DNA of 64,000 nucleotides, taken from the NCBI RefSeq assembly GCF_000568815.1, contig NZ_CP007201.1, positions 2,923,654 to 2,987,653 on the forward strand. Direction: 5' to 3'. Position numbers and translations under genes: made by a program. Positions 22,649 through 53,395 of this stretch are shown in pieces. Every line of letters starts with the position of its first letter. Position 1 is the first letter of the stretch. The stretch comes from Sulfurospirillum multivorans DSM 12446. Lineage in GTDB: Bacteria; Campylobacterota; Campylobacteria; Campylobacterales; Sulfurospirillaceae. Below the pieces are notes generated by a model. It was given only the letters and a program-made list of their open reading frames with translations, had not been told where the DNA came from and did not search any database.

Positions 22649-23726
22649 CATTATCTCCTTTATCCTATTTTTGACACTCTATTCCCTTCCCCTTCAGGCG
22701 ATGCCAGAGGATGCTGTTTTAAAAAAGATGATCGGACGCATGCTCGTCATTGGTTTTGATGATGCGACGATTGATGCGCAAAGTGCTATCGTTCAAGAGC
22801 TTCAAACCTATGAACTGGGTGGGGTTATTTTATTTGATCGATTTTATAAAGAGAGAGAACGGATAAAAAATATTAGCTCTCCTGCACAGCTGCAAGAGCT
22901 GACCAAACAACTCAAACACTATGCGCAAAAGCCGCTGCTGATTTCGATTGATCAAGAGGGTGGAAAGGTTGCGAGGCTCAAAAAACGTGATGGATTTAGC
23001 GAATTTCCTTCCGCTTTTTCATTCTCCAAAAGCTCCTTCGAACATGCCAAAGAACGCTACACGCAGATGGCGCAGATGCTAAAAGAATACGGCATCAACT
23101 GCGACTTTGGTCCCGTAGTCGACTTGGCGATCAACGCTGAAAACAGAGTGATCGTTGGGCTAGAGCGCTCCTATGGAAAAGAGAGTGAGGCGGTGACACA
23201 GTACGCTCAAATTTTTAGTGATGCGCTTAAAAGCAAAGGCGTTATCAGCGTACTCAAGCACTTTCCTGGGCATGGATCTTCTCTGGGCGATTCGCATCAA
23301 GGCTTTGTCGATGTCACACAAACGTGGAGCGAAAAAGAGCTAGAGCCTTACCAAAATCTCATCAATACCAATACTGTTTCGATGATCATGTCTGCGCATG
23401 TTTATAACGCAAAACTCGATGACACCTACCCCGCAACGCTCTCATATGCCATCAATTCCACACTTTTGAGAGGCAAAATGCACTACCATGGCGTGCTCAT
23501 AAGTGATGATTTGCAAATGGAAGCGATTGCAAACTATTACACCCTCAAAGAGACAGTCACCTTGGCGATCAATTCAGGCATCGATATGCTTCTTTTTGGC
23601 AACCAGCTCTCAAAAACACAAACTAATGCCATCGTTGAGACCATTTTTTCACAAATTAAAAGCGGTAAAATTCCGCTTGCACGCATCCTTGAAGCCAATG
23701 AACGCATTGCAAGATTACCACTTTAA
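22641..23726 (+). CDS. nagZ: Beta-N-acetylhexosaminidase, glycoside hydrolase family 3
   Basis: The start is ATG 22641 inside the end of the DTW gene. The 361-residue product has an N-terminal signal peptide (about 1-20), unlike the cytoplasmic NagZ of enterics. GH3 features are clear: LISIDQEGGKVARL, the acid/base loop KHFPGHGSSLGDSH and the nucleophile Asp in LISDDLQMEAI. It removes N-acetylglucosamine from muropeptides during cell-wall recycling. Export suggests it acts in the periplasm, as reported for some GH3 enzymes. Confidence 0.9.
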   Translation: MRNIISFILFLTLYSLPLQAMPEDAVLKKMIGRMLVIGFDDATIDAQSAIVQELQTYELGGVILFDRFYKERERIKNISSPAQLQELTKQLKHYAQKPLLISIDQEGGKVARLKKRDGFSEFPSAFSFSKSSFEHAKERYTQMAQMLKEYGINCDFGPVVDLAINAENRVIVGLERSYGKESEAVTQYAQIFSDALKSKGVISVLKHFPGHGSSLGDSHQGFVDVTQTWSEKELEPYQNLINTNTVSMIMSAHVYNAKLDDTYPATLSYAINSTLLRGKMHYHGVLISDDLQMEAIANYYTLKETVTLAINSGIDMLLFGNQLSKTQTNAIVETIFSQIKSGKIPLARILEANERIARLPL

Positions 23727-23729
23727 TAG

Positions 23730-23759
23730 ACTTCTTGTAAAACTCAATTTACAAGAAGT
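23730..23759 (+). terminator. Hairpin downstream of nagZ
   Basis: A 12-bp perfect inverted repeat (ACTTCTTGTAAA) with a 6-base loop begins four bases after the nagZ stop. No T-run follows on the + strand, so it may be a processing or stability hairpin rather than a strong terminator. Confidence 0.55.
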
Positions 23760-23763
23760 AAAA

Positions 23764-23855
23764 GCACTAAAAGTGCGTGGGCATTCTGCCGAGGAAAACC
23801 TCGTATTAACATCGTCTTTAGAGCTTTGCTTTAAAGACGTATCAAGAGTTCTGCA
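23764..23855. repeat. Multi-hairpin repeat, copy A
   Basis: Consecutive short hairpins: GCACT-AAA-AGTGC (23764-23776), GAGG-AAAA-CCTC (about 23791-23802), CGTCTTTA with TAAAGACG (about 23813-23839) and AGTTCT-GCA-AGAACT (about 23847-23861). The element is similar in sequence and order to 52043-52130; hairpin 1 differs by a compensatory T-A to C-G change. No coding content is seen. Confidence 0.65.
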
Positions 23856-23866
23856 AGAACTTTAAT

Positions 23867-46892: not shown

Positions 46893-47099
46893 ATGAAATT
46901 AACCATTAACGGCGACGTAAAAGAGATTAAGGACGGAATCGTTCTTTCAGAATTATTGGTCATCGAAGATGTTGAACAACCTGATATGGTCTCCGTCCAA
47001 CTCAATGACGAATTTTTAATCAAAGATACCTATGCAACAACAACGCTTAAAGAGGGCGATGAGATCAACTTTTTATACTTCATGGGAGGTGGTGCGTGA
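46893..47099 (+). CDS. hcyS: Sulfur-carrier protein of methionine synthesis (HcyS)
   Basis: A 68-residue ubiquitin-like protein ending in GGGA. In ThiS/MoaD relatives the C-terminal GG carries the sulfur; here an extra Ala caps it, as in the HcyS carrier described in Wolinella succinogenes, where a JAMM peptidase (HcyD) removes the Ala, HcyF adenylates the exposed glycine and a thiocarboxylate is formed for MetY. All these partners are encoded immediately downstream. Overlaps hcyF by 4 bp. A ThiS role is less likely, given the context. Confidence 0.9.
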   Translation: MKLTINGDVKEIKDGIVLSELLVIEDVEQPDMVSVQLNDEFLIKDTYATTTLKEGDEINFLYFMGGGA

Positions 47100-47902
47100 G
47101 AGATTTTAGCGATGAAGAATTAGAGCGTTATTCACGTCACATCATCCTCCAAGATGTGGGTATTGAAGGGCAAGAGAAAATTGCTAACTCTAAAGTTTTA
47201 GTCATTGGTGCGGGTGGGCTTGGCTCTCCTGTAGCACTTTACTTAGCCGCAGCAGGTGTGGGCGAAATCGGCATCGTGGATGGCGATGTCGTCGATCTTT
47301 CAAACCTTCAACGTCAAGTCATTCATGCCACAGCAGATATTGGGGTTCCTAAAGTACTTTCGGCTAAAGCGAAAATGGAAGCGATTAACCCGAATGTTAA
47401 AGTCACCGTGTACCAAAAGTTTTTAGATGCTTCCAACATTTTGGACATCGTCAAAGGCTATGACTTTGTCATCGATGGAACCGACAATTTCTCGGCAAAA
47501 TTTTTGATTAACGATGCGTGTATCTTGGCAAATGTACCTTATTCTCACGGTGGTATTTTGCGTTTTGGCGGACAAACGATGACGATTAAGCCACACGAGA
47601 GTGCGTGTTATGCGTGTGTGTTTGACAGCCCTCCTCCAGCCAATGCGATTCCTACATGTTCAAGTGCCGGTATATTGGGCGCGGTTGCTGGCATGCTTGG
47701 AACCATCCAAGCCGCAGAAGCTTTAAAATACATCGTCGGTGTGGGTGAACCACTCTACAACAGACTCTTAACCTTTGATGCCAAAACGATGAACTTTAGA
47801 AATGTGAATTTCAAGAAAAACCCTAAATGTCGCGTCTGTGGTGGAGAGGGAATCAAAGAGATACGAGATTACGAAGCCGTTGTCTGTGAGGCAAAGCTAT
47901 GA
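47096..47902 (+). CDS. hcyF: E1-like adenylyltransferase for the sulfur carrier (HcyF)
   Basis: The 268-residue protein is of the ThiF/MoeB family: nucleotide loop VIGAGGLGSPVALYLAAAG, catalytic Arg region NLQRQVIHATADIG, ATP-contact DGTDNFSAKF, and zinc cysteines in CYACVF and CRVCGG. The sequence IPTCSSAGILGAVAGMLG holds the family's catalytic-region Cys. No rhodanese domain is fused. It should activate the C-terminus of the carrier encoded just upstream; 4-bp overlaps link it to both neighbours. Confidence 0.9.
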   Translation: MRDFSDEELERYSRHIILQDVGIEGQEKIANSKVLVIGAGGLGSPVALYLAAAGVGEIGIVDGDVVDLSNLQRQVIHATADIGVPKVLSAKAKMEAINPNVKVTVYQKFLDASNILDIVKGYDFVIDGTDNFSAKFLINDACILANVPYSHGGILRFGGQTMTIKPHESACYACVFDSPPPANAIPTCSSAGILGAVAGMLGTIQAAEALKYIVGVGEPLYNRLLTFDAKTMNFRNVNFKKNPKCRVCGGEGIKEIRDYEAVVCEAKL

Positions 47903-48298: not shown

Positions 48299-48431
48299 AT
48301 GAAGAAGCCAGCTTCGAAATAAATCCTCTTGCAACACGGTTGAGACACGATGGGAGCCCCGAAACGCTCCGCTTATTCGTCCCATCGGCTCAAAGTGTTT
48401 TATTCGGATTTTTTCTACGCGACTTCTTCAT
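48299..48431 (+). ncRNA. Long nested hairpin between hcyD and sir
   Basis: Six nested complementary blocks give one elongated stem: ATGAAGAAG (48299) with CTTCTTCAT (48423); GAAATAAATCC (48316) with GGATTTTTTC (48406), one bulge; AACAC (48333) with GTGTT (48395); TTGAG (48340) with CTCAA (48389); GATGGGA (48349) with TCCCATC (48380); CGAA with TTCG at the apex. About 40 base pairs in 133 nt. It could be a structured RNA, an mRNA processing/attenuation element, or a MITE-like insertion. No frame is coded. Confidence 0.7.
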
Positions 48432-52023: not shown

Positions 52024-52151
52024 AATCAGCTGTCTAAAAAAAGCACCAACGGTGCGCGGGCTCGCTGCCGAAGCGAACTCAGCGTTAGCGAAGAGTTCAA
52101 AGCTTTGCTTTGAGCGCGTGTCAAAACGTAGGGTTTTTTCGATAGCTGATT
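52024..52151 (+). ncRNA. Multi-branched structured element between cysG and metY
   Basis: An 18-bp outer stem (AATCAGCTGTCTAAAAAA at 52024 with TTTTTTCGATAGCTGATT ending 52151; one mismatch, one G-T) encloses GCACC-AAC-GGTGC (52043-52055), TCGCT-GCCGA-AGCGA (about 52062-52076) and GTTCAAAGC-TTT-GCTTTGAGC (about 52095-52115). The inner part resembles the element at 23764-23855. It lies just upstream of metY and could be regulatory RNA or a REP-like element. Confidence 0.65.
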
Positions 52152-52174
52152 TACATTCAAAAGAAGGATATTTT

Positions 52175-53395
52175 ATGGGATTTACGACCAAAGCATTGCA
52201 TGCCAAACCTGCACACAAAGATCAACACGGCGCAATGCGCTTCCCTATCTACCAATGTTCAGCGTTTGAGTTTGAAAAATCAGAAGACCTTGAAGCTGTT
52301 TTCAAAGGTCAAAAGATGGGGCATGTCTACACACGCTCTTCCAACCCGTCCATCGAAGAGTTTGAACTCAAAATCAAAGCGATCAGTGGTGCGTTTGGGG
52401 TCATTGCAACTGCAACGGGAATGGCAGCGATTGCGAACGCGCTTTTTGCACTGGTTAAAAGTGGCGACAACATCATCACCACCAAGTACCTTTTTGGCAA
52501 TACGCTCTCGTTGTTTCAAACACTTTTCAGTGATTTTGGCGTGGAAGTACGTTATGTGGATTTAAGCGATATTGAAGCGATTCGTGCGAATATCGATGCT
52601 AAAACACGTCTGCTTTTCTGTGAAAGTATCAGCAATCCTCAATTGATTGTGCCTGATTTTAGCGCGATTAAAGCGGTCTTAAAAGAGCATCATGTGCCTC
52701 TCATCGTCGATACAACGGCAACCCCTTGGAATATCTTTGACGCCAAAAAACACGGTGTCGACATTGAAATTATCTCCGCAACCAAATACATTTCGGGTGG
52801 CGGACATGTTTTGGGCGGTTTGATCGTCGATAACGGTACCTTTAACTGGAAAAATCATGTAACGCTAGAGCCTTTTTTCAAAAAATTTGGTCCTTTTGCC
52901 TTTATGGCGCGTCTTCGTAAAGAGACCTTCCGAAATTTAGGCTCTTCGTTGACGGCGCAAAGTGCCTACTTGCTCTCTTTAGGGCTTGAAACGCTGGACT
53001 TAAGAGTGCAGAGAAGCTGTCAAAATGCCCTAGCTGTGGCAAAACATCTGCAAAGTAAGGCTGAGATTATCAGCGTTGAGTATCCGCTTTTGGAAAACTC
53101 GAACTATTTTGCGAACGCGTCTAAACAGTTTAGTGGCGGTGGCGGCATTGTCAGCTTTAGCTTTAGCGATAAAGAGACAACCTATGCGTTTTTAAACCGC
53201 CTGAACATCATCAAACGAGGCACGAACGTCCAAGACAATAAATCGTTGGCGATTGCGACGTATCATACGATTTACGCCGAATATTCCGATGAGCAAAAAG
53301 CCGCTTATGGGCTTACGGAAGGGATGATTCGCCTCTCTGTGGGTATTGAAGATTTGGAAGACTTGCTCGAAGATATTGACCAAGCATTAGCCTAA
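52175..53395 (+). CDS. metY: O-acetylhomoserine sulfhydrylase (MetY)
   Basis: ATG 52175 is chosen because AGAAGGA precedes it and homologous proteins start GFTTKALHA; the frame is open upstream through the structured element. The 406-residue PLP enzyme shows HVYTRSSNPSIEEFELKIKA, the phosphate-binding and cofactor Asp region PLIVDTTATPWN and the PLP-lysine in ISATKYISGGGHVLGG. In the HcyS pathway this enzyme accepts sulfur from the carrier thiocarboxylate and forms homocysteine from O-acetylhomoserine. It closes the operon. Confidence 0.92.
   Translation: MGFTTKALHAKPAHKDQHGAMRFPIYQCSAFEFEKSEDLEAVFKGQKMGHVYTRSSNPSIEEFELKIKAISGAFGVIATATGMAAIANALFALVKSGDNIITTKYLFGNTLSLFQTLFSDFGVEVRYVDLSDIEAIRANIDAKTRLLFCESISNPQLIVPDFSAIKAVLKEHHVPLIVDTTATPWNIFDAKKHGVDIEIISATKYISGGGHVLGGLIVDNGTFNWKNHVTLEPFFKKFGPFAFMARLRKETFRNLGSSLTAQSAYLLSLGLETLDLRVQRSCQNALAVAKHLQSKAEIISVEYPLLENSNYFANASKQFSGGGGIVSFSFSDKETTYAFLNRLNIIKRGTNVQDNKSLAIATYHTIYAEYSDEQKAAYGLTEGMIRLSVGIEDLEDLLEDIDQALA

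Follow-up and report, generated by a model that had tools for sequence, protein, structure and literature searches.

Dispersed folded repeats of bacteria are usually explained by RAYT or as scraps of transposons. The REP/BIME sequences of enterobacteria and pseudomonads are short, folded, intergenic and dispersed, stand at times in tandem or in inverted pairs, and carry GTAG before a hairpin. MITEs of DDE (IS5-like) insertion sequences carry no gene, lie between genes, share terminal inverted repeats with a full-length element, are bordered by 3-bp duplications and have a recognizable empty site. These features recur in the repeat family described here, which we approached from one copy in Sulfurospirillum multivorans DSM 12446, whose genome is a single contig of 3,175,729 bases. 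"The window" denotes the whole stretch that was analyzed, the 64 kb at bases 2923654-2987653, and coordinates refer to it unless another contig is named.

Within the window, a sulfate-assimilation operon runs in the order cysH, cysD, cysN, a ThiF-like gene, a desampylase-like gene, a sulfite/nitrite reductase gene, cysG and metY. Between cysN and the ThiF-like gene there is a small ORF (46893-47100) that ends in GGGA and resembles a sulfur-carrier protein; with its ThiF and desampylase-like neighbors, it is reminiscent of an HcyS-type homocysteine route. The gap between cysG (end 52018) and metY (start 52175) is occupied by a folded element, whose core lies 51 nt upstream of metY. Our overall reading, which we consider probable, is that this element belongs to a nonautonomous mobile folded repeat, many of whose copies in the genus are MITEs presumably moved by a DDE transposase, and that the metY copy is an end-less bystander between the arms of a second repeat, B. 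The features are as follows:

52175..53395, + strand: metY, O-acetylhomoserine sulfhydrylase family (NCBIfam TIGR01326, 8.8e-109, under its curated cut-off; plus related families)
52040..52123, + strand: repeat core, metY copy, model positions 1-84 (covariance model R1, 97.1 bits)
52043..52055, + strand: P1 hairpin, GCACC/GGTGC (98.5% of cells paired in 69 rows; both-side changes in 5/5 pairs)
52058..52080, + strand: P2 hairpin (double changes in 5/8 pairs of the 21-sequence alignment)
52059-52061 with 52067-52069, + strand: alternative pairing inside P2, probable pseudoknot (pair 20-30 by mutual information)
52082..52089, + strand: mini-hairpin of two pairs with a GTTA loop (inner pair T-A in 101, C-G in 54; n = 164)
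52093..52117, + strand: P3 hairpin with a GCTTTGC tip (96.9% of cells paired; double changes in 10/11 pairs)
52024..52041, + strand: left arm of the outer stem, remnant of repeat B (pairs with 52134-52151; GGCTAATC common to B at the same site in L189 and L193)
52130..52154, + strand: right arm, end of a B repeat (25/25 nt identical to B of genome G007 at the metY site)
48309..48425, - strand: further B copy, flanked by the desampylase-like gene and the gene for sulfite/nitrite reductase (87% identical to B of G007)
23761..23844, + strand: core of the nagZ copy (R1, 91.8 bits)
23728..23863, + strand: complete MITE around the nagZ core, both ends present, bordered by AAT at 23725-23727 and again at 23864-23866 (end search, duplication and sequence)

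A sequence-only reading of this stretch had described an 18-bp outer stem closing a group of hairpins before metY, and the stem held up: 17 of 18 positions pair between 52024-52041 and 52134-52151, 16 of them as Watson-Crick pairs. The predicted folding energy of the 139-nt element is -57.7 kcal/mol, compared with -39.1 (SD 3.8) for shuffled sequences (z = -4.9); for the nagZ copy, z is -5.8. Folded alone, the metY region is predicted as a single long hairpin, which is not the fold of the family. The same reading had likened the inner part to an element after nagZ, with a shared fold and a T-A/C-G covariation in hairpin 1. The two cores are indeed identical at 56 of 84 positions, ungapped, both are found by R1, and C-G and T-A are exchanged between them in hairpin 1. 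Beyond what that reading contained, the outer stem belongs to B, the core also occurs in other families of the order, and the fold probably includes a pseudoknot.

R1 was built from 21 sequences, and the covariance-model search of the genome and its relatives that had been proposed yielded 54 copies in this genome (E ≤ 0.001) and 6-77 copies per genome in 24 of 24 Sulfurospirillum genomes (up to 150 candidates scored in each). In an even draw of the phylum, scanned with stricter filters and up to 15 candidates scored per genome, copies were present in 48 of 298 genomes, comprising 13 of 13 Sulfurospirillum genomes and 35 genomes in families f4, f8 and f11; the four sampled genomes from other genera of its own family had none. 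Blastn with the metY copy gave 42 matches in the genome including itself (~31 of them substantial) and missed the nagZ copy, which R1 recovered. A pattern scan of the genome contigs returned 105 stretches, and 83 matches were taken from the 80 loci listed. In Rfam 15, the window gave only tRNA at gathering scores, and five loci searched at E ≤ 1 again gave only tRNA, leaving the core without a match. Plasmid and phage records held no match to the core. One contig of a viral collection (L398, 5683-5778) carries a single core at 70.6 bits and may be a host fragment.

Several variant arrangements were observed. Tandem core arrays with a period of ~88-92 bp and without MITE ends occur in S. cavolei (L129, L061) and in genome G266 (L309, L310). 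Genome G182 has four identical copies directly before an apparent 23S rRNA start, judged by eye, in what appear to be rRNA-operon spacers. A second core type (L160, L161, L162, L165 and L311 1406-1484) has the half made up of TTARCGTAG, P3 and CGTG in common with the first but a different 5' half, and the two types can stand as head-to-head neighbors (L311, L304). Our searches of the open-licence literature, PMC12306157, PMC7755780 and PMC8865925 included, gave no description of this repeat family. A 106-bp insertion difference upstream of cbiB between Sulfurospirillum strains is reported in PMC7755780; we rejected it as a copy of the family because the sequence from genome G004 differs and has no core match. 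The fold looks undescribed and common to an order of bacteria.

The family fold has three separate hairpins (P1, P2 and P3), a mini-hairpin of two pairs and, probably, a pseudoknot. Across the model, 95.2% of cells pair in the 21 sequences. A lack of further copies or of covariation had been named in advance as what would count against a conserved fold, and the opposite was seen: besides the copies counted above, double changes numbered 53 cells in the 21 sequences compared with 14.8 in shuffles (none of 500 as high), and 382 compared with 89 in 69 distinct rows that include the distant copies, an alignment fitted to the model and hence leaning toward it. Covariation is strong in the 26 pairs of the model. 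When 164 rows (none with more than eight gaps) were scanned for mutual information, with the structure playing no part in scoring, 15 of the top 16 positions went to model pairs. The remaining pair, 20-30 in eighth place (G-C in 145, A-T in 17, other in 2; n = 164), crosses P2, so that a pseudoknot between RGC (20-22) and GCY (28-30) may form; the alternative is another loop contact. Pairing is weaker in the outer part of P2, where one pair, at alignment columns 40-95, fails in 24 of 66 rows. A further contact, 37-47, changes from A-T to G-C in four distant copies, with T-T in 12 near copies as exceptions.

Among structural pairs, G-U was counted 285 times and A-C 34 times. Excluding P2a and the G-U-rich pair 61-71 left 131 versus 21, and weighting by similarity gave 45.5 versus 6.2. 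This excess of G-U on one strand argues that one strand is held to the fold. Of 164 copies, 140 fold better as the plus strand than as the minus strand, a count whose rows are related, which makes p-values too small and leaves the direction clear. A one-strand fold fits RNA, and it also fits single-stranded DNA.

The core has no fixed leader or terminator position. Neighbor arrangements were taken from a simple ORF caller (16 loci overlapped an ORF, and 26 were too near an end to count). Over the four possible arrangements, own copies were distributed 9/8/9/12 and distant loci 7/6/5/3; relatives' loci were distributed 38/17/23/24 (n = 102), with a slight lean to co-orientation with both neighbors (38/102). 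No replication-strand bias was seen in a hand count with the origin assumed at position 1.

Many copies in the genus carry a left hairpin, TAGACTTCTTGCAAAACTCATTTTGCAAGAAG, and a right hairpin, AAGAGTTCTGCAAGAACTCTA, whose outer ends are mutually inverted repeats. With up to four substitutions allowed, both ends were found in 17 of 43 own copies and at 39 of 128 places in relatives' loci; one or both were missing in 26 of the 43. Neither end was found in any of 26 distant copies, from which it follows that the core is older than the MITE. Exact 3-bp target duplications were present in 29 of 56 cases compared with 15.1 expected (maximum of 26 in 10,000 shuffles). The cleanest filled and empty pair is L098, filled, and L016, empty with a single ATT; the remaining pairs are less exact. 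After nagZ we found no clean empty site: six relatives are without the element there, but the next gene differs. At two loci (L167, L172), MITEs have their core wholly or mostly deleted and their ends nearly fused, and full copies occupy the same site in L060 and L103.

A 916-bp insertion sequence with ends AGACATCTTGCAAAAC and 3-bp duplications was found in four copies (L154-L157; G000:C1:1537645-1538560). Its two overlapping ORFs match HTH_Tnp_4 and DDE_Tnp_4, and we take it to stand near IS5. One copy lies in DNA otherwise 98-99.96% identical to genome G004, which has one AAT and no insertion at this site, indicating that the insertion sequence moved recently. Its ends read AGACATC, compared with AGACTTC or AGAGTTC in the MITE, and from this sequence likeness its transposase presumably moves the MITE. 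The genus copies thus show what MITEs of a DDE insertion sequence show, namely shared terminal inverted repeats, a duplication of fixed length and an empty site. The metY copy has no terminal inverted repeats of the DDE insertion sequence; its flanks are the arms of B.

We compared 19 loci of the genus at the metY site (L209 repeats the L197 locus). The core is present at five, each in its own species (L184-L188), with scores of 97.1, 96.0, 92.4, 85.0 and 67.0 bits; the lowest belongs to L187, which has a deletion in P2, and the range looks like drift and not like strict selection. Eight species have B instead of the core, in one orientation in five (L189, L190, L193, L195, L196) and inverted in three (L191, L192, L194). 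Six relatives (L197-L202) have metY without an insert, with a gap of 6-10 nt between the flanks.

B itself is a near-palindromic, low-copy dispersed repeat of ~120 nt with a match in 15 of 24 genomes, several of the listed matches being the metY-site arm only. Its outer arms vary among loci yet remain complementary, as judged by eye (L244-L253, L189-L196), and B-type sequence stands at two gaps of the same sulfate-assimilation operon. Upstream of metY in S. multivorans, the element matches B of G007 exactly at its right end and starts, on the left, like B of L189, which places the core between B arms; it either entered B or replaced its middle. This arm pair was not found elsewhere in the genome. 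A third dispersed repeat with these arms at its ends was considered and rejected, since other near-matches in the genome are imperfect and the two inspected show no element.

One strand of the 84-nt core is constrained to the fold, and we propose that this fold, as single-stranded RNA or DNA, would be what a copying or placing machinery recognizes. That the core is mobile we infer from the sequences of its copies. In Sulfurospirillum, the ends of an insertion sequence with a DDE transposase would have captured the core between them, many copies then spreading as MITEs of ~136-150 bp through the presumed action of that transposase. Because many genus copies are without one or both ends, the MITE route cannot account for all of them, and no carrier for the core was found in other families. 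The metY copy is a core without MITE ends, lodged between B arms in the cysG-metY gap. A dedicated role in metY control is improbable; at most, the element may put a spacer of ~150 nt of folded RNA between two cistrons of the operon.

The sequence-only reading had also entertained a sulfur-responsive RNA, that is, a cis-regulatory element sensing S-adenosylmethionine or homocysteine and controlling metY translation or termination. A strong fold 51 nt before metY in a sulfate-assimilation operon, a core kept at this site in five species, and B at two gaps of the operon all speak for such a role, to which we nevertheless give almost no credence: metY stands without the element in L197-L202 (6-10 nt between flanks), eight species carry a different insert in two orientations, the L187 core is damaged (67 vs. 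97 bits, with its P2 deletion), Rfam offers no match at E ≤ 1, and many other sites carry copies, in one orientation or the other, so that there is no conserved position before the genes of one pathway. The empty sites and the exchange of insert were decisive in rejecting it. The other idea put forward then, a dispersed REP/MITE-like family, stands as regards the many copies, the MITE ends with 3-bp duplications and the absence of a fixed orientation, and falls as regards a strict REP with a RAYT partner. Such a REP would be the target of a RAYT (a Y1 HUH transposase), with GTAG before P3 as the recognition tetranucleotide. CGTAG does precede P3 in most copies, as expected of a REP; at least one Y1 gene is present in 13 of 13 sampled genus genomes, and Y1 genes occur in 36 of 48 core-bearing versus 49 of 250 core-less genomes, counts uncorrected for kinship. 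However, a core lay within ~1.5 kb of a Y1/RAYT locus in 0 of 31 cases, many RAYT genes (that of S. multivorans included) are flanked by GGGGTCAG inverted repeats instead, and among the 35 genomes outside the genus that carry the core, 12 lack a Y1_Tnp match, one of these having 20 copies. Based on the search for PF01797 in 298 genomes and the core scan of the 31 Y1 loci, we rejected a REP of RAYT as very improbable, and on present evidence RAYT is not the vehicle. A RAYT-like Y1 gene beside an apparent gyrA (L183:1462-2220, also L377-L379) has GGGGTCAG inverted repeats as its borders.

Another explanation is a functional noncoding RNA, useful to the host or selfish, made from many loci and acting in trans, with the MITE as only a local vehicle. 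Strand-specific G-U pairs, the probable pseudoknot and the covarying 37-47 contact are consistent with it, as are a core kept in f4, f8 and f11 while its flanks are not and the copies in apparent rRNA-operon spacers of G182. We nonetheless regard it as unlikely, given that distant copies have no conserved promoter-like flank by eye, that orientation to genes is near random, and that most genomes of the phylum lack the core, as do the four sampled from other genera of its own family. Alternatively, the core could represent a class of Campylobacterales element that is new, a pseudoknotted RNA or single-stranded DNA that spreads and persists through its fold, independently of any one transposon and captured by insertion-sequence ends in Sulfurospirillum; we consider this a possible but doubtful account. 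If it were true, spread would need an as yet unknown enzyme that reads folded single strands, or an RNA function in trans, possibly catalytic.

We return to the nonautonomous mobile repeat that we favor. Here a probably knotted fold, kept by covariation across families and with no RAYT adjacent, is packaged as a MITE in one genus. The family makes it possible to test whether selection on bacterial repeats acts on RNA or single-strand structure. Its metY copy carries a warning as well: a folded leader before a biosynthetic gene is not by default a riboswitch, this one being an insertion absent from relatives.

With the structured RNAs of Rfam 15 (riboswitches and small ribozymes), the core shares covariation, a probable pseudoknot and conserved unpaired residues, whereas it is unmatched at E ≤ 1, is present in many copies per genome and has no fixed gene context. 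An integron attC site is one imperfect palindrome; the core has several separate helices. BOX, RUP, ERIC and Correia repeats are likewise intergenic, conserved in secondary structure and presumably mobile without an enzyme of their own, but they have other sequences and another host group, and covariation across families of an order is not known for them. Compared with REP/BIME sequences, the present core is 84 nt long, with several helices, a probable pseudoknot and no RAYT association found. Finally, in contrast to MITEs of DDE insertion sequences, the inside of this element is a strongly covarying fold and not a remnant of a transposase gene, and the same fold also stands end-less in other families.
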